Source: Pseudomonas sp. gcc21
GTDB lineage: Bacteria; Pseudomonadota; Gammaproteobacteria; Pseudomonadales; Pseudomonadaceae
DNA length: 64,000 nucleotides
Direction of reading: 5' to 3'
Assembly (NCBI RefSeq): GCF_012844345.1
Contig: NZ_CP051625.1
Coordinates: forward strand, 992,001-1,056,000
The position numbers were made by a program, and so were the translations under genes. This document shows, one piece after another, positions 10,336 to 35,986 of this stretch. How positions within the stretch are numbered: position 1 is the stretch's first letter; each line of letters starts with the position of its first letter. The notes below the pieces were generated by a model. It made no database searches, was not told where the DNA came from, and was given only the letters and a program-made list of their open reading frames with translations.

Positions 10336-10575
10336 TTACAGAAACATCGCCATACTGGCGAGAATGATCACCAGCCAGCCGCTGACGATAGCGCGGAACA
10401 ACTTCGGACCCTGAGCCAGTCCCATGAAATGGTCAATCAACCATTGGCCCTTGATCGCGCTGAGGAGAATGATTGCCCATAGCAGCCAACTCCCTTCGGT
10501 GTAGTGCCCCAACCACCAGCCCAGCGCGGTGAGACCGAGCAGTGCCAGCCAGCTGTACGTCAGTTTAGTCGTCAT
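10336..10575 (-). CDS. norF: NorF, small membrane protein of the NO reductase operon
   Basis: A 79-residue protein with about three membrane helices (GWWLGHY.., WLLWAIILLSAIKGQWLIDHFMG, and a C-terminal LVIILASMAMFL). The segment SAIKGQWLIDHFMGL is typical of prokaryotic cytochrome oxidase subunit IV/NorF proteins. It lies 7 nt after norE. NorE and NorF are not part of the purified cNOR but improve its activity in Paracoccus and Pseudomonas. Confidence 0.85.
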   Translation of the reverse strand: MTTKLTYSWLALLGLTALGWWLGHYTEGSWLLWAIILLSAIKGQWLIDHFMGLAQGPKLFRAIVSGWLVIILASMAMFL

Positions 10576-10582
10576 GCGTACC

Positions 10583-11191
10583 TCACGGCAGTATATAAAG
10601 CAGGGGAAACAGCATCAGCCATACCAGATCCACCATGTGCCAGTAACTGGCAGCCGAGTCCGCTGCCATTCGCCGCGCTCCAGGCGTTTGATACACGCCG
10701 CGCTGCCAGCGCCGGGCGACTACGAGCAGGATCACCATCCCCAGTAACACGTGCATCATGTGAAAGAAGGTGGTGAAAAAGTAGAAGAAGTAGAAGGTGT
10801 CAGTGCGCAGGTTGTACCCCGCGCTGAACAGCTGAACGTATTCAACAGTCTTGATCACGACGTAGATAACGCCGCTGCCCGCGCCGGCATAGAACCATCG
10901 CGGCAAGCTCGACAACCGCCCCGCACGCATATCGGCGACACCGCGAGCCACCCAGTAGCTTCCGGTGAGCAGCGCCAGCGTGTTGATCAGCCCCGCTTGG
11001 GGATGCAGCGTTGCCACACCGGCGCTGAACATTTCGGGCCAGGTGCCGCGGGCAAACGCCATCCCGCCCAGCAATAGAGCGAAAACCGCCAGTTCGGCGA
11101 AAATGAAGAACCACATCGCCAGATCGCCGGGTATCTCCGCTTCCGTTACTTCGGCACCCAAGGGCAAATTTATTCGTTCGCGTGCGTTCAT
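10583..11191 (-). CDS. norE: NorE, cytochrome c oxidase subunit III-like protein
   Basis: A 202-residue membrane protein with about five helices of the CoxC/NorE family. Typical motifs are PGDLAMWFFIFAELAVFALL near the N-terminus, the TFFHMMHVLLGMVILL helix, and SYWHMVDLVWLMLFPLLYI at the end. Its ATG overlaps the norD stop (ATGA). It is thought to help assemble or stabilise NO reductase. Confidence 0.93.
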   Translation of the reverse strand: MNARERINLPLGAEVTEAEIPGDLAMWFFIFAELAVFALLLGGMAFARGTWPEMFSAGVATLHPQAGLINTLALLTGSYWVARGVADMRAGRLSSLPRWFYAGAGSGVIYVVIKTVEYVQLFSAGYNLRTDTFYFFYFFTTFFHMMHVLLGMVILLVVARRWQRGVYQTPGARRMAADSAASYWHMVDLVWLMLFPLLYILP

Positions 11192-13026
11192 GGCGTGCGT
11201 CCGGTCAGCAGGAGATACAACTGCGGCAGGAGTGCAGGCAGGTCAGCGGCTTTTTGCAACAGATGGAATCGCTGTGGGCCGAACAGATAGGGCAGGTAAT
11301 CCGCCGCCTCGTGATCGATGGTCACACAGAAGGGTTCGAGGCCGGCACGGCGCGCCTCGATCAGGGCATGGCGGGTATCTTCCATACCATAACGCCCTTC
11401 ATACAGGTCCAGATCGTTTGGTTTTCCATCAGTCAGCAGCAGCAACAGGCGCTGCTCGGCGGGCTGTTCCTTGAGAATTTCCGTTGCCTGACGGATCGCC
11501 GCGCCCATGCGCGTGTAATACCCAGGGCGTAACGCCTGAATGCGGCCGTGTATTGGCGCGCCCCAGGGCTCGGCGAAGTTCTTGATCAGACTGAAACGCA
11601 CGTGGTCACGTCGACGCGAGGAGAATCCATACATCGCGAAGGAGTCATCGCCTGCGTCCAGTGCTTCGCCCAGCAGTTCCAGGCTGTCGCGCACGACGTC
11701 GATCACCTGATGCTGGTTATCGGCATAGGCTTCGGTGGACAAGGAAAGGTCAGCCAGCACCAGACAGGCAAGATCACGCTGTTGCGGCGATTGCTGACGC
11801 CATAACGCCGGCTGGGCGTTGGCTTCGCCGCGCCGGCGAGCGGTAGCGAAATGGATGCAGGCCTCCATATCCAGCAGGGGGCCAGTAGCCTGACGCTTGT
11901 TCCAGCCTTGCTGCGGGCGCAGCGCTTCAAAGCGGCGGCGCAGCTCACCGGCAAGTGGCTGCAAGCGCGACGGCAAGGTGCAGGGCACGGCATCCTTCGG
12001 CAGCATCGGGATAACCTTGCAGTGCCGGGCTACCAGCTGCTCCTTGCGCCAGTCCCATTCGGGTAACAGGCAGCCGGCGCCGAGCGGGATGTCGTCCTCG
12101 GCTGCGGAGGGCAGATCCAGATCCAGACGCAGACGGGACGCGCCGGCATCGCCGTGGCGTGACAGACTCAAATAATCGAGATCGTCGGCAACGCGGTCCG
12201 CATCATCGTCTTCGCTGTCGTCGACGGTGCGGTCCACCGGTACAAACTCGGACCAGGAGAACAGACTTTCAAGGCGGAACACGATTAGCCCGTCGCGCCC
12301 GTCTATGTCATCAACAAATTCGGCGCGCTTGCGGCCCTTGCCTTCCTTGGGTTTGGGCGCGCCAGAGCTGGTGCCGTCGTTGTCATCGGTACGCGACACG
12401 GCGGCCTGATCCTGATGCAGCGCCGGATACAGCCACAGCGGAACAGGCAGCGGATCGCCATCGGCTAGGGGCAGACTTCGCTGACTTCCAGGCTCGAGGA
12501 TGGCCGCCTGCAGACAGCGTTCACGACGAGCCTGCGCAGCGGAGAGCGTGTTCACAGAGGGGCGGATACGAACCAGTTCAGTCGCCAGCCGCTCATACAG
12601 CGACACCAAACCCGGAAAACGTTCCAGCGTGGCGGTAACCTGGGTCTGGTTCCATACCAGCCAGTCGCCTGTAGCGGGTGAGCCGCTCTGGCTGGCCAGA
12701 GCCACCAGCCATAGATACAGGTCATTGTTCAGTTCGGTGGTCGGGTAAGTCTGGATCACGGCGGGCAGACGTACACTGTCGTGATCGCGCCAGGCCATGG
12801 CGTACTGGCGACCGGTGCCGGCGATTTTTTCGAGCCAGTGACGCGGAGGTCGAAAGGTGCGCTCGGTGGCGGCTTTGATCACCAGGCCGGGGTCGCCGCC
12901 CAGCGCGCGAAACACCATGGCCAGGCGCGGGCCCTGATCTTCCAGTCGAACCTGGGCTTCGGGATAACTGGTACGCGCCAGGCGAGTCACCAGATTGTGC
13001 CAACGCATGCCTACGAGTTCTTCCAT
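11188..13026 (-). CDS. norD: NorD, VWA-domain NO reductase activation protein
   Basis: A 612-residue cytoplasmic protein. The C-terminal von Willebrand A domain (about 410-600) has a MIDAS motif DLSLST, a later conserved Thr/Gly region (YYTRMGAAIR), and LLLLLTDGKPNDLDLYEG. The middle is acidic and probably unstructured. NorD works with the AAA+ ATPase NorQ as a MoxR-VWA pair that inserts non-heme iron into NorB. Start ATG at 13026. A perfect hairpin lies between norB and this gene (13141-13164). Confidence 0.95.
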   Translation of the reverse strand: MEELVGMRWHNLVTRLARTSYPEAQVRLEDQGPRLAMVFRALGGDPGLVIKAATERTFRPPRHWLEKIAGTGRQYAMAWRDHDSVRLPAVIQTYPTTELNNDLYLWLVALASQSGSPATGDWLVWNQTQVTATLERFPGLVSLYERLATELVRIRPSVNTLSAAQARRERCLQAAILEPGSQRSLPLADGDPLPVPLWLYPALHQDQAAVSRTDDNDGTSSGAPKPKEGKGRKRAEFVDDIDGRDGLIVFRLESLFSWSEFVPVDRTVDDSEDDDADRVADDLDYLSLSRHGDAGASRLRLDLDLPSAAEDDIPLGAGCLLPEWDWRKEQLVARHCKVIPMLPKDAVPCTLPSRLQPLAGELRRRFEALRPQQGWNKRQATGPLLDMEACIHFATARRRGEANAQPALWRQQSPQQRDLACLVLADLSLSTEAYADNQHQVIDVVRDSLELLGEALDAGDDSFAMYGFSSRRRDHVRFSLIKNFAEPWGAPIHGRIQALRPGYYTRMGAAIRQATEILKEQPAEQRLLLLLTDGKPNDLDLYEGRYGMEDTRHALIEARRAGLEPFCVTIDHEAADYLPYLFGPQRFHLLQKAADLPALLPQLYLLLTGRTP

Positions 13027-13180: not shown

Positions 13181-14666
<1,486 letters not shown>

Positions 14667-14667
<1 letters not shown>

Positions 14668-15113
14668 CAGCCTTCCTTGTTCGGCGGCCAGTCATTGGTA
14701 TCAATACGCGATGTCCAGATCAGGAACTCGGACAGGGCGCGTGTTTCTTCCTCGGTCAGGTTGAATTGCGGCATCTTCCGGCGGCCGGGAACGCCGATCG
14801 GCTGCGCCTTCATCCAGGCGGAAAAGTAGGCATGAAAGGCTTCTTCGTTGCCCATGCCGCGACGGTCAAAGACGTTGCCCAGCTCGGGAGCGAAATAGGC
14901 GCCTTCACCCAGGAGTGAATGGCAGCCAACACAGTTGTTCTCTTCCCAGAGCTCCTTGCCGTGAGCGACCTCAGCGGTGAGCTGGTCGCGGTTCTCGCGC
15001 TCAGGAATCGCCACCACGGTGTCCACGGTCAGTCCGATAAACAGCAGCATGAAAAACATGCCGCCCCCGTAGTAGATATTTCGGGCCATGCCCTTGGTAA
15101 AACGCTCCGACAT
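14667..15113 (-). CDS. norC: nitric oxide reductase cytochrome c subunit NorC
   Basis: A 148-residue protein with one N-terminal membrane anchor (YYGGGMFFMLLFIGLTVDTV) and a periplasmic monoheme cytochrome c domain. The heme motif is CVGCH followed by SLLGEGAYFAPEL, and the likely Met ligand is in RRKMPQF. It delivers electrons to NorB. Size and layout are those of ordinary NorC, in contrast to the 277-residue paralogue at 30913-31746. Confidence 0.97.
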
Positions 15114-15201: not shown

Positions 15202-16068
15202 TCAGGCGCTGGTTTTCAGTTGTTGTAAGGTTGTCGCAGGGTGGGTGTTCGCCCCGAAGTGCGCCTTGACCACGTCAAGGATGGCGGCCTGAGTGGTCGG
15301 GTCGTCACTCAGCGGCTGCGCCAGGCAGGCTTCGCAGGCGGCGACGGGATCAAGGCCGGCACGCATCAGGCGAGCGGTATGTATGAGTAGTCGGGTAGAA
15401 GGCGCTTCCTCCAGGTCATGTGTGCCGAGATGGCGTAAGGCATTGCACAGCTGAACCAGCCGTGTTGCCAGAGCAACTTCGATGCCGGCTTCGCGAACCA
15501 GAATGTCGATTTCTGCAGCTGCTTCGGGGTAGTCAAAGGTCATCGCCACGAACCGTTGGCGAGTGCTCGGCTTGAGTCCTTTCAACAGGTTGCGGTAACC
15601 GGGGTTGTAGGACACCACCAGCATGAAGCCGGGGGCAGCTTCGAGGCACTCGCCAGTCGCATCCAGCGGCAGAATGCGGCGGTCATCAGCAAGCGGGTGC
15701 AGGACTACCGTGGTGTCCTTGCGCGCTTCGATAATCTCGTCCAGATAGCAGATGGCGCCTTCACGTACTGCGCGGGTCAGAGGGCCGTCCTGCCAATAGG
15801 TGCCGTCAGTTCCAATGAGGTGCCGGCCGACGAGGTCCGCGGTGGTCAGGTCGTCATGGCAGGCCACTGTGTACAGCTTGCGCCCCAGACGTTCGGCCAT
15901 GTGTTGAACGAAGCGGGTCTTGCCGCAACCGGTGGGACCCTTGATGAGCACCGGGAGTTGATGCCGGGCGGCCTGTTCAAATAGTTCGGTTTCATTACCT
16001 GTGGCCCGGTAGTAGATGCCGTTGTGCTCGGGCTGATGGAGTGCACTGGTGCTTGCAAGATCGTTCAT
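15202..16068 (-). CDS. norQ: NorQ/NirQ MoxR-type AAA+ ATPase
   Basis: A 288-residue AAA+ ATPase of the CbbQ/NirQ/NorQ group. Walker A is GPTGCGKTR, Walker B is AICYLDEI, sensor 1 region is VVSYNPGY, and sensor 2/arginine region follows LKPSTRQRFVA. With NorD it activates NorB by FeB insertion. Here it leads the operon, in front of norC. Its promoter region has a sigma-54 element (16147-16162) and GT-N7-AC sites upstream. Confidence 0.95.
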   Translation of the reverse strand: MNDLASTSALHQPEHNGIYYRATGNETELFEQAARHQLPVLIKGPTGCGKTRFVQHMAERLGRKLYTVACHDDLTTADLVGRHLIGTDGTYWQDGPLTRAVREGAICYLDEIIEARKDTTVVLHPLADDRRILPLDATGECLEAAPGFMLVVSYNPGYRNLLKGLKPSTRQRFVAMTFDYPEAAAEIDILVREAGIEVALATRLVQLCNALRHLGTHDLEEAPSTRLLIHTARLMRAGLDPVAACEACLAQPLSDDPTTQAAILDVVKAHFGANTHPATTLQQLKTSA

Positions 16069-16146: not shown

Positions 16147-16162
16147 AGCAAGTGCTATGCCA
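16147..16162 (-). promoter_or_regulatory. sigma-54 promoter of the norQ operon
   Basis: On the minus strand TGGCATAGCACTTGCT matches the -24/-12 consensus TGGCAC-N5-TTGCW with one mismatch. Transcription would begin about 65 nt before the norQ ATG. The dnrN promoter at 34332-34347 has the same 16-nt layout. Confidence 0.75.
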
Positions 16163-16203
16163 GTTTATAAGTCACTGTTCTATAAAGAGAAAGTAGGCGT
16201 GCA

Positions 16204-16260
16204 AGTATTTTCGACCCGGCTGCGGCGTGGTAATAATCACCATTAGTGGTGAGATGTACC
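16204..16260 (-). promoter_or_regulatory. three NorR-type enhancer sites upstream of norQ
   Basis: Three GT-N7-AC sites lie at 16204-16216 (AGT-N7-ACC), 16229-16241 (GGT-N7-ACC) and 16248-16260 (GGT-N7-ACC). Centres are 25 and 19 nt apart and the nearest is 48 nt from the edge of the sigma-54 element. NorR is known to bind three GT-N7-AC sites. The NorR homologue is encoded at 34448-35986. Confidence 0.72.
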
Positions 16261-16531: not shown

Positions 16532-16545
16532 TTGACGCTGATCAA
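16532..16545 (+). promoter_or_regulatory. FNR/Dnr-type box upstream of nosR
   Basis: TTGAC-GCTG-ATCAA, one mismatch to consensus, 74 nt before the nosR ATG. It should activate the nos operon through Dnr or Anr. Confidence 0.85.
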
Positions 16546-16619: not shown

Positions 16620-18779
16620 ATGAACAACCCAATCAATGTCTCATGGGTATGCAGAGCAATCATCTGCCTCATCCTGGGGTTGGGGGCGTTTCAGACGGCT
16701 GCAGCACAGGTTTATGCAGACCTGATTCAGCAGCGGATTGAGACCGCGCTGCCCAAAGTTGACACTATTTCCGAGCCTGAGGGTGAGTACGACGTTCGCA
16801 CCCTGTATGCCGGCGAAGAGGTTGTGGGTTATGCCTACGAGAGTATCAATGTCACCAACATTCCTGCCTATTCCGGCAAACCTATCAATGTTCATGTGAT
16901 TATCGATCCGCGAGGCGTGATTCAGGATGCCTATGTGCTGGAGCACCACGAACCCATCCTGCTGATTGGTATTCCCGAGCAGAAGCTGCACGACTTCACC
17001 GCCAAATACGACGGCATTTCGGTTAACCAGCGTGTGGTGGTGGGGCGTTCGCGTGACGAAAACGCCGTCACTGTGGACGCGGTAAGCGGAGCAACGGTGA
17101 CCGTCATGGTGGTCAGCGAAATTGTCATGGGGTCAGCTCATACCGTCGCGGTATCGCTGGGTCTGGTTGATGCCGCCAGTGCAACGGGGACCAAGCCGGC
17201 CACCGTGCGCGATGATGTGTATCAGGAGGCGGACTGGGCGACCCTTACCGGGAACGGCGCGATTCGCCGTCTGCATCTCACCCACGGCGAGATCGACGAA
17301 GCCTTTCGGGGGACCGAAGCAGAAGGCATAGACGAAGCTGCACCGGAGCAGGTCGACACGACTTTCATCGACATGTATGCCGCGCATCTCAACCCGCCGA
17401 CCATTGGCCGCAACCTGTTGGGCGACAACCAGTACCGGTTCCTGATGGAAGACCTTGAACCGGGCGAGCACGCCATTGCCGTGATGGGCCGGGGTGACTA
17501 CTCCTACAAAGGGTCTGGCTATGTGCGCGGCGGCATCTTCGATCGGGTGCAGCTGCGCCAGTTCGGCGAGATGATCAGTTTCCGCGATATGGACCACGAG
17601 CGGCTATCTGACGTCTTCGCTGCAGGCATGCCTGACTTTGATGAAATGTCGATTTTCATCGTGCGCGAGAATCATCGCTTCGATCCCGGTACACCCTGGT
17701 CGCTGGAGTTGCTGGTACGCCGCCAAACCGGGCCGGTAAGCAGTGTATTTACCAGTTTCGAACTGCCATATCAGCTGCCTGAAGAGTACATCGAACGGCC
17801 GCCGCTCACAGAGTCGGAACTGGCGGCGATCGAAGAAGCCAACCGTCCGATGTGGGTCAATATCTGGTATCAGCAGAGCTGGCAGATCGGCGTCGTGGTC
17901 ACTGCGCTGCTGGTGCTGCTTGGCATCCTGTTCTTCCAGGACAAGCTGACCAAACACCCGACTTTCCTGCACTGGCTACGCCGCGGGTATCTGATATTCA
18001 CCGTCACATTCCTCGGTTGGTATCTGCTGGGACAGCTGTCTGTCGTCAACGTGCTGACCTTCGTGCATGCCGTATTCGAAGACTTTCGCTGGGAGCTGTT
18101 CCTGTCCGACCCAATCATTTTCATCCTGTGGGTCTTCACCGCCGCCAGCATTCTGTTGTGGGGTCGGGGCGTTTTCTGCGGTTGGTTATGTCCCTTCGGT
18201 GCGCTGCAGGAGCTGATCAATGAAGCCGCGCGCAAGTTGAAAGTGCCCCAGTACGAGCTACCCTTTGCTGTACATGAGCGTCTGTGGGCGATCAAGTACA
18301 TAGTGCTCATGGTGCTCTTTGCCATTTCGCTGGAATCCATGGCTGTCGCAGAACGTGCGGCCGAGGTCGAGCCGTTCAAGACGGCGATTACTCTGAGGTT
18401 CGATCGCCAATGGTGGTTTGTACTCTATGCGGTGATTCTGCTGGTGATCAGTATTTTCACGCGCAAGGTCTACTGCCGATACATTTGCCCACTCGGCGCC
18501 GCCCTGGCTATTCCATCGAAGTTCCGCCTGTTTGACTGGCTCAAGCGCCGTAAGGAATGTGGCGACCCGTGCCAGCTGTGCGCCAAGGAGTGTGAGATCC
18601 AGGCTATTCATCCGGACGGACATATCAACCACAACGAATGTCATTACTGCCTGGATTGCCAGATGACCTACCACAATGACGAAAAATGTCCGCCGTTGAT
18701 TCTCAAGAACAAGCGGGCTCGCAAAGGCAAGAAGGAGCCTGTTCCCGAGCTGATTCCGGTACATGTGGTTGAACCTTGA
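16620..18779 (+). CDS. nosR: NosR, membrane flavo-iron-sulfur protein for N2O reduction
   Basis: 719 residues. A Sec signal (about 1-29) leads to a periplasmic FMN-binding domain whose covalent flavin site is the Thr of SGATVT. Five or so membrane helices follow (about 420-640), with cytoplasm-facing CxxxCP motifs (CGWLCPFG and CRYICPLG). A C-terminal polyferredoxin part has CGDPCQLCAKEC and CHYCLDC. NosR passes electrons from the quinone pool to NosZ and is needed for nosZ expression and maturation. First gene of nosRZ(DFYL). Confidence 0.97.
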   Translation: MNNPINVSWVCRAIICLILGLGAFQTAAAQVYADLIQQRIETALPKVDTISEPEGEYDVRTLYAGEEVVGYAYESINVTNIPAYSGKPINVHVIIDPRGVIQDAYVLEHHEPILLIGIPEQKLHDFTAKYDGISVNQRVVVGRSRDENAVTVDAVSGATVTVMVVSEIVMGSAHTVAVSLGLVDAASATGTKPATVRDDVYQEADWATLTGNGAIRRLHLTHGEIDEAFRGTEAEGIDEAAPEQVDTTFIDMYAAHLNPPTIGRNLLGDNQYRFLMEDLEPGEHAIAVMGRGDYSYKGSGYVRGGIFDRVQLRQFGEMISFRDMDHERLSDVFAAGMPDFDEMSIFIVRENHRFDPGTPWSLELLVRRQTGPVSSVFTSFELPYQLPEEYIERPPLTESELAAIEEANRPMWVNIWYQQSWQIGVVVTALLVLLGILFFQDKLTKHPTFLHWLRRGYLIFTVTFLGWYLLGQLSVVNVLTFVHAVFEDFRWELFLSDPIIFILWVFTAASILLWGRGVFCGWLCPFGALQELINEAARKLKVPQYELPFAVHERLWAIKYIVLMVLFAISLESMAVAERAAEVEPFKTAITLRFDRQWWFVLYAVILLVISIFTRKVYCRYICPLGAALAIPSKFRLFDWLKRRKECGDPCQLCAKECEIQAIHPDGHINHNECHYCLDCQMTYHNDEKCPPLILKNKRARKGKKEPVPELIPVHVVEP

Positions 18780-24678: not shown

Positions 24679-25182
24679 TCAATGGCTGAGCTTCTCGAAG
24701 CCCGCATCGTCGAAATAGGTAGCGTAGTTATTCAACGCCCCCACCATTCGAATTGCTCCAAAACGCTGCGCCTGATCCGCTACTTCTCCCTGCATTACCT
24801 TGGCGGCGGTCATCAGATCCGCAATGACCAGATGCAACTGCGCGTCTGCTTCGCCCTCCAGTTCGCAATGTTCGATCATATAGCTCACCTGTTCAGTCAC
24901 GCTGCTTGCGAGTGCCTGGTAGCGTTCGCCCTCAAGCGTGTCCTGGTGAATCTCCGGCATCAACGGGCGAATGTCGTTTCTCAGAATGCCCATGGCCTTG
25001 CGCAGCGGGGCGTCGGTTTCCCATTGGCTGCCGTCGTTCAACTGCATGGCGTGCTCGCCCATGCCATGTGCCTGGTGCGCTTCGTGTCCGTGCGCATGGT
25101 CATGGGTTTCGGCATGAGTGATACCGAGCGGTGCTACCGCAAAGGCGGTTGCCAGACATAAGCCTAAAATCTTGCTGGACAT
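24679..25182 (-). CDS. His-rich periplasmic helical protein
   Basis: 167 residues. A signal peptide (cleavage after THA, residue 24) is followed by a His-rich stretch (ETHDHAHGHEAHQAHGMGEH) and then a mostly alpha-helical part (about 55-165), as in four-helix-bundle periplasmic metal or heme proteins. I do not recognise the family. A perfect FNR/Dnr box 47 nt before the start (25229-25242) shows it belongs to the anaerobic/NO regulon, and the gene lies between nosL and dnr. Copper or other metal buffering for NosZ and NirK is a reasonable guess, not shown. Confidence 0.8.
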   Translation of the reverse strand: MSSKILGLCLATAFAVAPLGITHAETHDHAHGHEAHQAHGMGEHAMQLNDGSQWETDAPLRKAMGILRNDIRPLMPEIHQDTLEGERYQALASSVTEQVSYMIEHCELEGEADAQLHLVIADLMTAAKVMQGEVADQAQRFGAIRMVGALNNYATYFDDAGFEKLSH

Positions 25183-25228: not shown

Positions 25229-25242
25229 TTGATCTATATCAA
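25229..25242 (-). promoter_or_regulatory. FNR/Dnr-type box (perfect) upstream of the His-rich gene
   Basis: TTGAT-CTAT-ATCAA is a perfect match to the consensus. The centre is about 54 nt before the start at 25182, so a class II start site would leave a leader of only about 10-15 nt. Confidence 0.9.
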
Positions 25243-25382
25243 AGCAAGCTTCATGCCGAACGCTATGTAATTGATTCTGCAGTATATTTAATGGTGTGGG
25301 TGGAATGCACCATTCTGTAACAGGGTCATTTAAACCGTGAGGGTATTCGCAACCCGGCTGCAGGGGGAGAATGGACCAGCGG

Positions 25383-25795: not shown

Positions 25796-26482
25796 TCAGG
25801 CGAACTCGGCCAAGAGCTTGCTGACGCTGGGAATCTGGATATGACGGCCCTGGCTGCCTATCAGCCCAAGGTCCCGCAGCGTTGCCATGGCACGCGACAA
25901 GGTTTCGGGTTTGATCGACAGACGTGCAGCGATCAAGCCTTTGGGCAGGCCCAGATCCAGCTCAACGGTATCGTCGGAGCGATCCTTGATCTGGCTGACC
26001 AGGTACAGCGCGAAGCGCTGCGTGGCATTCTGCAGGGTCAGGTTTTCCAGCTCATCGAGACGCTGATGCAGACGCACGCTCAAATGTCCGAGCAATCGCA
26101 GACAGGTTTGCGGATTGCTCTCCAGACTGCGCAACATGAGTTTGTTCGAGAAACCCGCCAGCTGCACGGGCTGTAATGCTTCGGCACAAACAGGATAGAC
26201 CGGACGTTGCATGAACATCACGGCTTCAGCGAAAGTGTGGCCTGCTTGAATCACCTCGACGACCTTTTCCTTTCCATCAGGTGAGATGCGGAACAACTTA
26301 ACAGCACCTTCAAGCACCAGAAAGAATCGATCGGCCGGATCACCCTGACGCAGAATCAGCGCCTGGGCCGGGTATTCCCGGTAGACGGTCTCGGCCAGCA
26401 TTTCAGCCTGAACCTCTGCGGGAAATGACGAAAGCATTGGATGCTGAAGGACTCGATGATGATGTTGCGCAGGCAATTGCAT
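25796..26482 (-). CDS. dnr: Dnr, Crp/Fnr-type NO-responsive regulator
   Basis: 228 residues: an N-terminal cyclic-nucleotide-like sensor domain (about 15-125), a dimer helix, and a C-terminal helix-turn-helix (LIAARLSIKPETLSRAMATL). The E-x2-SR recognition pattern predicts binding to TTGAT half-sites. It lacks the N-terminal Fe-S cysteines of Anr/FNR, so it is Dnr, the heme-based NO sensor of pseudomonads. The boxes upstream of nirK, the DUF411 gene, ubiU, nosR, the His-rich gene and ccoN are likely targets. Its own promoter has a perfect box (26524-26537), usually bound by Anr or Dnr itself. Confidence 0.93.
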   Translation of the reverse strand: MQLPAQHHHRVLQHPMLSSFPAEVQAEMLAETVYREYPAQALILRQGDPADRFFLVLEGAVKLFRISPDGKEKVVEVIQAGHTFAEAVMFMQRPVYPVCAEALQPVQLAGFSNKLMLRSLESNPQTCLRLLGHLSVRLHQRLDELENLTLQNATQRFALYLVSQIKDRSDDTVELDLGLPKGLIAARLSIKPETLSRAMATLRDLGLIGSQGRHIQIPSVSKLLAEFA

Positions 26483-33573: not shown

Positions 33574-34287
33574 TTATTTGCCAGAGCAGACAGAGCAGCA
33601 GCTATTTGCGGGCTCGTCGGCGATACGTGGGCTGAAAGTGAACAGAATGTTGTTTTCCAGATGGATGTGCTGCATCAGATCCTGACGGAATTCATCAAGC
33701 CCCCGATACAGCGCTTGCCAGGTGTTGCATGCGCCCGCAGGGGGAGTAATGTCGTTGGTCAGTCTCATCAATTCTTCCAGCGACTCTCCATGCTGATCAT
33801 GTTCAAAGCGCATGACCGTGACGGGCCCTGCCGCTGCGCTGTGTTGGCCTTCAATAAGCATCGGAAACAGGATTTTTTCCTCTTTCAACATGTGGCTCTC
33901 AAGTTCCTGCTGCATGTTATCGAGGTGGTCGGCCAATCCGTTCGGGCAGTCCGGGCGCTGCCCATGGACCTGTTCGACGCGCCGAGCCAATCTGATAAGT
34001 TCCGGGAGCTGTTCCCTGTGCGTATCGTGGTAGCGCTCAAGAATGTGCTCAATCAATGCCGAGGGTGAAGCCTGACGCCAATCGGTATCGGTCGTGCTAC
34101 CTGTCTGGAGATGGCTCAGCTCGTCGCTGACGGCTTGGGCGCTGATCTGCTTGCGGTTGGCTGCTTCGGCCAGGGTAACGTGCCCGTTGCAACAGAAATC
34201 GAGCCGGTGCGAATGAAATACGCGCGTTGCGCCGGGAATGGAGCGGGCCAGATCGCCCAGCGGAGTGTTCAGGTAGTCAGGTGTCAT
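33574..34287 (-). CDS. dnrN: DnrN/ScdA/YtfE di-iron protein for iron-sulfur repair
   Basis: A 237-residue protein of the RIC family. The N-terminal ScdA_N domain (LGDLARSIPGATRVFHSHRLDFCCNGH) precedes a hemerythrin-like four-helix bundle with di-iron ligands in HILERYHDTHREQLPEL, ESHMLKEEKILFP, MRFEHDQHGE and HIHLENNILF. A Cys-rich tail (CCSVCSGK) ends it. It repairs Fe-S clusters and handles iron-nitrosyl damage. The ATG at 34287 starts at the domain edge; earlier in-frame codons fall upstream of the sigma-54 promoter. It is under that promoter (34332-34347), divergent from norR. Confidence 0.93.
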   Translation of the reverse strand: MTPDYLNTPLGDLARSIPGATRVFHSHRLDFCCNGHVTLAEAANRKQISAQAVSDELSHLQTGSTTDTDWRQASPSALIEHILERYHDTHREQLPELIRLARRVEQVHGQRPDCPNGLADHLDNMQQELESHMLKEEKILFPMLIEGQHSAAAGPVTVMRFEHDQHGESLEELMRLTNDITPPAGACNTWQALYRGLDEFRQDLMQHIHLENNILFTFSPRIADEPANSCCSVCSGK

Positions 34288-34331: not shown

Positions 34332-34347
34332 AGCAAGCCTTGTGCCA
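34332..34347 (-). promoter_or_regulatory. sigma-54 promoter of dnrN
   Basis: On the minus strand TGGCACAAGGCTTGCT matches TGGCAC-N5-TTGCW fully. It is 45 nt upstream of the dnrN ATG and, with the element before norQ, is one of two such promoters found. Confidence 0.85.
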
Positions 34348-34387
34348 GGTTTCAAGCATTTGAATTTCAATGGAAATTAGTATAAAA

Positions 34388-34446
34388 GGGTCGCTTGTAC
34401 CCACTTCCTGGAGGGTAATAAAGCCCTTCTAATGGTTAATTGAACC
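34388..34446. promoter_or_regulatory. NorR-type sites between dnrN and norR
   Basis: GGT-N7-ACC at 34389-34401 and 34434-34446, with a degenerate GGT-N7-CCC at 34414-34426. Centres are 25 and 20 nt apart, and the nearest is 48 nt from the sigma-54 element of dnrN, as before norQ. The outermost site ends just before the norR ATG (34448), so NorR probably also represses itself. Confidence 0.78.
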
Positions 34447-34447
34447 C

Positions 34448-35986
34448 ATGATTGAACCCTTGATATTGCCTGATCTGGTAGCTGAGCTGCCTGCAGCGGT
34501 GCGCATGCAGCGGCTGGTCCATGTCCTGCGCGAACATTTCCAGTGTGGCGCCGTGGTGTTGCTGCAGCGATCCGAAGATTGTCTCAAGCCCCTGGCCGCT
34601 GCGGGGCTGGTTCAGGAGGCGCTCGGACGGCGCTTCGAGATCGCCAGTCATCCACGCCTGGCGGCACTGATATCGAGGAAGGAGCCCACCTGGTTCGACC
34701 CTGACAGCCCGTTACCCGACCCCTACGATGGCCTGCTGGACAGTTCACCTGGCGAGCCGCTGCCCGTGCACGATTGCATGGGCGTCAGTCTGTATGGTGA
34801 AGGGCGCCTATGGGGCGCATTGACCATGGATGCGCTGCGCGCCGGCACCTTTGACGAGGCGGCGCGGCGCGAATTGCAGGCAATGATTCCATTGATCGAA
34901 GCCTGCGTGCGGGTCACGCGACTGGAACAGGAAAACCGCACGCTACGGCTTTCCCGGACCGGCGAGCAGCCTGGGCTGCCGGCAATTGACGAGCACGTGC
35001 TCGGCCATAGTCCGATTGTCACCGGGCTGCTTGAAGAGCTGAGCGTGGTTGCCGATTCCGAACTCCCGGTGTTGTTGTCAGGGGAAACCGGTGTGGGCAA
35101 GGAATTGTTCGCACGCTGGGTGCATAGCAATTCTCGCCGCGCCGACAAGCCGCTGATCCACGTGAACTGCGCAGCCTTGCCGGAGACTTTGGCGGAAAGT
35201 GAACTGTTCGGCCACGTGAAGGGCGCATTCTCCGGTGCGATGACCGATCGGGGAGGACGCTTCGACGCAGCGCATGGCGGGACCATACTGCTCGATGAAG
35301 TGGGTGAGTTGCCGCTGTCGATTCAGGCCAAGCTACTGCGTACGTTGCAAAATGGTGAGATACAACGAATCGGGGCAGACAAACCGATCAAGGTCGATGT
35401 GCGGATCATTGCTGCCACCAACCGAAAGCTGGCTGAGTCGGTGGCGGCAGGGGATTTCCGCGCCGATCTTTATCATCGCTTGTCGGTTTACCCGGTGCCG
35501 ATCCCGCCTTTGCGCGATCGGGGCAATGACATCCTGTTGTTGGCCGGGCACTTTCTTGAACTGAACCGCATCCGTCTGGGCGTGCGCAGTCTGCGCCTCT
35601 CTCCTGAAGCAGAGCAGGCGCTGCTCGGATACCAGTGGCCGGGCAATGTTCGCGAACTCGAACATGTCATCAGCCGCGCCGCGCTGAAGGCGCTTGGCCG
35701 GAATGGCTCACGCCAGGGGATCATCAGCCTTGAAGCGGCGCATCTGGATATTGCGTCCGCTGCTCCGGCCAATGAGCCGGTCGCGGCTTCCCTTTCCGCT
35801 ACGCCAGGTGATGGCGCAGGTGAGCTGGCGAGCCTCAGGCAATTCACCGATGCCTGTCAGCGCCAACATCTGCGCGCGGCGTTGGAGCGGGCCAACGACA
35901 ACTGGGCCGCTGCCGCGCGGATGCTTGATATCGACCCCAGCAACCTGCACAAGCTGGCTAAGCGTCTGGGCCTCAAGGCGAGCTGA
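34448..35986 (+). CDS. norR: NorR-type NO-sensing sigma-54 activator
   Basis: 512 residues. An N-terminal GAF domain (about 10-165) has the NorR motif HDCMGVSLYGEGRLWGALTMD, with C110 aligning with E. coli NorR C113 near the NO-binding iron. The AAA+ domain (about 190-425) has Walker A GETGVGKE, the sigma-54 contact loop ESELFGHVKGAFSGA, Walker B GTILLDEVGELP and R-fingers. A Fis-type helix-turn-helix ends it (NWAAAARMLDIDPSNLHKLAKRL). The usual GAFTGA reads GAFSGA here. Divergent from dnrN, with NorR sites between; the norQ operon is a second probable target. Confidence 0.94.
   Translation: MIEPLILPDLVAELPAAVRMQRLVHVLREHFQCGAVVLLQRSEDCLKPLAAAGLVQEALGRRFEIASHPRLAALISRKEPTWFDPDSPLPDPYDGLLDSSPGEPLPVHDCMGVSLYGEGRLWGALTMDALRAGTFDEAARRELQAMIPLIEACVRVTRLEQENRTLRLSRTGEQPGLPAIDEHVLGHSPIVTGLLEELSVVADSELPVLLSGETGVGKELFARWVHSNSRRADKPLIHVNCAALPETLAESELFGHVKGAFSGAMTDRGGRFDAAHGGTILLDEVGELPLSIQAKLLRTLQNGEIQRIGADKPIKVDVRIIAATNRKLAESVAAGDFRADLYHRLSVYPVPIPPLRDRGNDILLLAGHFLELNRIRLGVRSLRLSPEAEQALLGYQWPGNVRELEHVISRAALKALGRNGSRQGIISLEAAHLDIASAAPANEPVAASLSATPGDGAGELASLRQFTDACQRQHLRAALERANDNWAAAARMLDIDPSNLHKLAKRLGLKAS

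Follow-up and report, generated by a model that had tools for sequence, protein, structure and literature searches.

A predicted NorR and sigma-54 promoter before the norQCBDEF operon of a probable Halopseudomonas species

NorR is usually seen as a regulator of detoxification, and Dnr and NnrR as the activators of respiratory nitric oxide (NO) reductase. The operon described here raises the question of which of these regulators governs a c-type NO reductase (cNor). It lies in a window of 64,000 nucleotides, the whole stretch of DNA analysed, from a 3.98-Mb single-contig genome. The closest records to its NorQ come from Pseudomonas profundi, P. saliphila, Halopseudomonas yangmingensis and H. 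pelagia, and the genus of the window is taken to be Halopseudomonas. On the minus strand, the operon comprises norQ (15202..16068; AAA_5 and CbbQ_C domains), norC for the cytochrome c subunit (14667..15113), norB (13181..14584; a canonical cNor, 748.5 bits to 3o0r_B), norD (11188..13026; VWA domain), norE (10583..11191; COX3-like) and a probable norF of 79 amino acids (10336..10575), named from its size and place only. By gene content this is a cNor (NorCB) operon, NorB and NorC being accompanied by NorQ and NorD, and norQCBDEF is presumably read as a single transcript. The window also encodes nirK (609-1997; TIGR02376, 323.7 bits), narXL-like genes (10271 to 7748), nosR (start at 16620), a Crp/Fnr-type gene (26482..25796) and nnrS. 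The NirS-type family PF02239 had no match in this genome.

A NorR promoter is defined by three tandem GT-N7-AC inverted repeats in the accessible text of PMC1274295, and this arrangement is present before both norQ and dnrN. The norQ sigma-54 promoter TGGCATAGCACTTGCT occupies 16147..16162 on the minus strand (read 16162..16147). The array scan placed three predicted NorR sites upstream on the same strand, namely site 3 GGTCGAAAATACT (16204..16216; one outer base off), site 2 GGTGATTATTACC (16229..16241) and site 1 GGTACATCTCACC (16248..16260). Their centres are 25 and 19 nt apart, and 48 nt separate the nearest centre from the T of TGGC. The dnrN promoter TGGCACAAGGCTTGCT (34332..34347, minus strand, read 34347..34332) is served by a predicted site 3 GGTACAAGCGACC (34389..34401), a degenerate site 2 GGGCTTTATTACC (34414..34426) and a site 1 GGTTCAATTAACC (34434..34446), all on the minus strand, with spacings of 25 and 20 and again 48 nt to the promoter. 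The predicted site type at both promoters is GGT-N7-ACC, with four of the six sites perfect.

The scanner looked for three GGT-N7-ACC sites and a 16-nt sigma-54 element. It was set by hand, with a maximum of 45 and a threshold of 39, and its weights and spacing ranges were chosen after the norQ and dnrN arrays had both been read. Within the window it scored norQ at 44, a third array at 44 and dnrN at 43, the next, unrelated place reaching 34. The maxima of twenty first-order Markov sequences of 64 kb were 33-38, all below the three window arrays, and a chance origin of these arrays is rejected on that ground. A single GGT-N7-ACC was uninformative genome-wide (1380 matches vs 1126 for a reversed control), so that only the whole array informs.

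The preliminary description had reported two promoters, three sites at each with one degenerate at dnrN, and the spacings given above; promoters, sites and figures were all located as claimed. Its view of the promoters as twins stands insofar as both are real, but the window holds three arrays. The common geometry on which it remarked is numerically right and is the ordinary NorR layout, as at norA of Cupriavidus necator (Ralstonia eutropha) on pHG1, where the array scores 43 with spacings of 19/26/46. A geometry peculiar to the norQ and dnrN promoters was rejected for this reason.

The third array, also on the minus strand, precedes a gene for a DnrO-like, periplasmic-looking protein of 167 amino acids (24679..25182), which has no Pfam match and one homologue named DnrO by a source. 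Its sigma-54 promoter CGGCATGAAGCTTGCT lies at 25243..25258 (25258 being its upstream end), and its predicted sites 3 (25299..25311), 2 (25324..25336) and 1 (25342..25354) are all perfect. A perfect Dnr/Fnr box TTGATCTATATCAA (25229..25242) lies between this promoter and the gene, and control of the DnrO-like gene by both NorR and Dnr is therefore suggested. Relatives of the gene in two other loci (L152 and L154) are likewise preceded by arrays. A profile, R1, was built from the sequences only of 30 arrays, the window's three belonging to the training set. Across the whole genome it returned dnrN (1.2e-15), norQ (5.6e-15) and the DnrO-like gene (4.5e-14). A weaker fourth candidate (C1:3624288-3624397, or L172 2789-2940; model positions 1-107 of 113; 9.6e-6, 27.7 bits) has a poor -12 and a gene for a small glycine-rich protein downstream. 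Two further, shorter matches had E near 0.5.

The likely activator of the norQ array is the NorR encoded beside dnrN. The dnrN/ytfE gene for iron-sulfur repair (33574..34287, minus strand; NF008221, 335 bits) adjoins norR (34448..35986, plus strand; NF003451, 690 bits), whose product, NorR-A, shares 62% identity and the helix SNLHKLAKRLG with the NorR of C. necator. The genome encodes two NorR proteins that pass the family cut-off, NorR-A and an hmp-linked paralogue (C1:1601263), and they are 51% identical. The paralogue has the helix GNFARLKKRLGI and faces TGT-N7-ACA sites, while NorR-A faces GGT sites. Among scored rows, the SNLHKLA-type NorR faced GGT arrays in 23/23, a count that takes in the window and C. 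necator, and L115 despite its poor promoter. The GNF-type faced TGT arrays in both of its scored rows, which are only two. Other NorR helices follow no simple rule, ANLHRLA of E. coli going with TGT-class sites and SNLIRTM of L227 with GGT-class sites; L127 is outside the scored set. Site 1 of dnrN ends 2 nt short of the norR ATG (34434-34448); given this closeness, NorR might also repress its own gene through the outermost dnrN site.

The conservation of the norQ array was examined in Halopseudomonas. An RpoN domain was present in 37/37 genomes searched, NorR-A (at least 72% identity) in 20/37 and norQ1 in 17/37. All 17 are among the 20, a co-occurrence with a hypergeometric probability of 7e-8 when genomes are treated as independent despite kinship. 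The genus set consisted of 16 norQ regions, the window included; G029 was left out because its norQ is cut at the contig end, and L017-L020 and L022 were dropped as the same records as five genus regions. At threshold 39 an array was found in 16/16 regions, with the sigma-54 -24/-12 element kept in position downstream at NorR-like spacing. Distances of 18-20, 25-26 and 47-48 nt were constant within 1-2 nt. The information content of the 16 arrays was 1.88-1.94 bits in the GGT/ACC columns and 0.54-0.61 in the N7 cores, compared with 0.26 and 0.49 bits in the 20-nt flanks upstream and downstream, respectively. The norQ sites put forward in the preliminary description are retained across the genus in their GGT/ACC letters, the N7 cores having drifted, although regions from a single genus are not independent samples. 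Counting against the promoter, the -12 C is replaced by A or T in 9/16 genus norQ promoters; the window norQ retains it. In the NorR-A/dnrN region, 18 of the 19 relatives fetched pass the threshold, and L115 has three perfect sites and no clear sigma-54 element.

The distribution of Dnr boxes is the counterpart of this pattern. With the Dnr/Fnr consensus TTGAT-N4-ATCAA, as given in the accessible text of PMC1274295, boxes of the Dnr/Anr type with at most one mismatch occur at 11 places in the window, six of them before genes: nirK (453), nosR (16532), the DnrO-like gene (25229), the Crp/Fnr gene (26524), a second norC (31812) and ccoN (36122). The nosR box TTGACGCTGATCAA (16532..16545; one mismatch) is 75 nt before the nosR ATG. 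No box lies within 400 nt of norQ or norC, which would place the window's norQCBDEF operon outside the Dnr regulon, and the 400 nt upstream of norC also hold no array. Genus-wide, norC has a Dnr box (at most one mismatch, 400 nt) in 0/16 regions.

Elsewhere in the Pseudomonadaceae the picture is reversed. A NorB match was found in 140/398 family genomes; 123 of these lie beyond the genus, among them G367, which matched no better than the second cNor does. Twenty of the nor regions from beyond the genus were sampled. There norC had a perfect box in 20/20, 55-63 nt before the start, and an array in 0/20; norQ, in view in 14 of the regions, had a box (at most one mismatch) in 14/14 and an array in 0/14. 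The arrays of the genus, set against the Dnr boxes of the sampled family, indicate that the regulator of the cNor operon differs in Halopseudomonas. It has been reported that norCB of P. aeruginosa is Dnr-regulated (PMC12403760, accessible text), and the contrast with that species drawn in the preliminary description holds and is wider, extending to all the family members sampled. The R1 profile matched 168/398 family genomes, but most of the matches listed were not upstream of norB. Six of the 20 regions (L177-L179, L189-L191) have a dnrN with an array beside a NorR-A relative, and dnrN of L184, L185 and L187 has no array. Given these arrays outside the genus, the pairing of NorR-A with dnrN as its target looks older than the link to norQ. 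The genome of L189 has a second GGT array (3659; score 43) about 200 nt before a Dnr-like gene, so that dnr itself may be a NorR target in that genome.

These sequences are best read as putting norQCBDEF under NorR, with arrays in 16/16 regions, norC boxes in 0/16, NorR-A in all 17 norQ1 genomes and the array missing from Arhodomonas, where no NorR passes the family cut-off. It was weighed against several others. That Dnr or Anr is the chief regulator, acting through the 16532 box shared with nosR with the NorR array secondary, draws on the one-mismatch box in the norQ-nosR intergenic region. It also draws on 5/16 genus regions with a one-mismatch box within 400 nt of norQ; in four of them the box is 203-287 nt away, past the array, and in the fifth it falls within the array. 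Dual control of norQ may accordingly hold in some Halopseudomonas species. However, the intergenic box is over 450 nt from norQ, no other with at most two mismatches lies in that stretch, and the norC box is absent throughout the genus and universal in the sampled remainder of the family, so that this account is improbable. The array might be real but the target of a different enhancer-binding protein, for instance the hmp-linked paralogue, as both NorR proteins above the cut-off would control arrays of equal geometry. The paralogue's helix GNFARLKKRLGI and TGT-N7-ACA sites, against the C. necator-type helix and GGT sites of NorR-A, speak for the latter even with only two GNF rows scored, and a role for the paralogue is very improbable. 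A chance or non-functional resemblance could be argued from the sequence nature of the evidence and from the changed -12 in nine relatives; it is scarcely credible for an array that outscores every Markov maximum and whose conservation is confined to the motif letters. It is accordingly held as highly probable that 16147-16260 is the predicted NorR enhancer and sigma-54 promoter of norQCBDEF, within the explanation set out here as a whole.

The origin of this operon was approached through wider taxa and a NorB tree. A class sample, 40 loci drawn from the best NorQ matches of a longer list, had a norC box (at most one mismatch) in 28 of the 36 regions in view and an array in 0/36 at norC and 0/40 at norQ. 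Sixteen of 80 loci in the NorQ record list were scanned, the remainder being mostly Campylobacterota. In a Methyloversatilis MAG norQ is preceded by a GGT array (42), and a NorR scoring over the cut-off is encoded. Arhodomonas shares the gene order but shows neither an array nor a NorR that passes the family cut-off. TGT-class arrays stand before norC in Marinobacter and in Marinobacterium, whose NorR is divergent; each scores 41 vs shuffle maxima of 34. Three TGT-like sites, at a wider spacing common to both, are present in two Shewanella (L036, L054; 36 and 35 vs shuffle maxima of 34 and 33), and Thalassomonas scores 35 vs 33; all three are below the threshold of 39. The tree contained 81 rows from 85 loci tried, L261 being too short and three loci lacking NorB. 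Methyloversatilis groups with the 16 genus rows (99/99), and Arhodomonas joins this clade (100/96). The next join (99/92) brings in Marinobacter, Marinobacterium, Shewanella, Thalassomonas, L273 and L094, and the 20 other Pseudomonadaceae form a clade of their own (100/99).

As Halopseudomonas NorB stands apart from the sampled family clade, lateral acquisition is likely, and norQCBDEF is probably a different cNor lineage, acquired with its NorR-type promoter, and not the family norCBD. A promoter exchange in situ, on the nor operon native to the family and without lateral transfer, was the initial assumption and was set aside when the tree pointed to another operon lineage. It takes some comfort from the fork at which the clade of other Pseudomonadaceae meets the NorR-type lineage, a fork that is not starred (94/88), but the groupings just described and a gene order that differs, with norQ first, make it unlikely. 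A broader reading is that a cNor lineage in Halopseudomonas, the Methyloversatilis MAG, Marinobacter, Marinobacterium, Shewanella and perhaps Thalassomonas is run by NorR and sigma-54 instead of Dnr or NnrR, and that Halopseudomonas replaced the family norCBD with it and wired it into a NorR-A regulon already holding dnrN. The chances of this are put at even, lowered because Shewanella and Thalassomonas score under the threshold. Neither array nor box was found at norC in L273 and L094, and the evidence for NorR control therefore does not extend to every member of the tree group. If the lineage reading were true, NO reductase would respond to NO itself and be uncoupled from the oxygen and nitrate hierarchy.

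The GAF-iron and AAA+ steps of NorR action are established for E. coli. By analogy, NO from NirK or from outside would bind the iron in the GAF domain of NorR-A, and this binding would free the AAA+ domain. NorR-A on its three GGT-N7-ACC sites would then remodel the sigma-54 polymerase at the -24/-12 element and switch on norQCBDEF, that is, cNor and its assembly factors. NorR-A would also drive dnrN and the DnrO-like gene, with nirK and nosR carrying Dnr/Anr-type boxes, and the sigma-54 promoters of the NO-removing enzyme and of the repair protein DnrN would be opened by it. NorR binding, induction by NO, the identity of the acting paralogue and bending by IHF at norQ are putative. Boxes between enhancer and -24 were scored against the IHF consensus, WATCAANNNNTTR; such a box is not a strict requirement. 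The best box lay 4-6 nt before TGGC in 33 of the 39 array rows listed, with a mean of 8.1/9 vs 6.5 when shuffled. The dnrN promoter has 8/9 letters (34353..34365, minus strand), and the window norQ has the poorest box, 6/9 and placed elsewhere.

Switches of this type are known already; the novelty lies in the target of this one and in a regulator that differs within a single family. The norR-norAB system of C. necator likewise has three GGT-N7-ACC sites and a sigma-54 element, and its first target is a ytfE/norA gene, as dnrN/ytfE is here. Its NO reductase gene, annotated as a large single-subunit enzyme, follows norA in the same direction, whereas the window has a separate promoter and a distant cNor operon. 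The norR-norVW system of E. coli differs in its TGT-class sites, in a distance to the promoter of 61 nt vs 48, in its flavorubredoxin target and in a NorR 46% identical, vs 62% for that of C. necator.

A study by Rodionov in 2005 (PMC1274295) predicted NorR sites for norB in Shewanella putrefaciens and Ralstonia, and for hmp and dnrN in P. stutzeri. As in the window, NorR is there tied to NO reductase, and NorR sites accompany sigma-54 promoters at dnrN; the accessible part of the study contains no Halopseudomonas, norQCBDEF or within-family change of regulator. A review describes R. eutropha norA as NorR-regulated and P. stutzeri dnrN as DnrD-regulated (PMC9268430, accessible text). The Dnr-controlled norCBD genes of Pseudomonas (accessible parts of PMC12403760 and PMC8139620) encode a homologous cNor; in the present comparison they differ by a Dnr box, another gene order and another NorB clade. 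The review PMC8139620 puts NorR outside its scope. Work on Methylophaga nitratireducenticrescens (PMC5710167, PMC11526790), whose accessible text contains no site analysis, gives norR and cnorB1 locus tags that are near neighbours, reports a rise of both genes in anoxic cultures grown on nitrate, and treats NorR as the regulator of Nor. Titles and abstract openings, with most subscription papers and RegPrecise outside the search, gave no report of NorR control of a norCB or norQ operon in Halopseudomonas. With a regulator that differs within one family, the effect of NO-sensor choice on NO and N2O release becomes open to test, and nor regulation should not be transferred uncritically from Pseudomonas or Stutzerimonas to Halopseudomonas.

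The window also contains a second, divergent cNor-type set (31746 to 26633) downstream of nnrS, with a two-haem NorC-like protein, a NorB-like protein, NorQ and NorD, and a one-mismatch Dnr box precedes its first gene. On a plasmid of Aquabacterium olei (L161), a set resembling it comes after norR-ytfE. Another NorR paralogue in the genus adjoins a nosR-like sequence, in view in four of nine loci (L142, L143, L148 and L149 of L141-L149).
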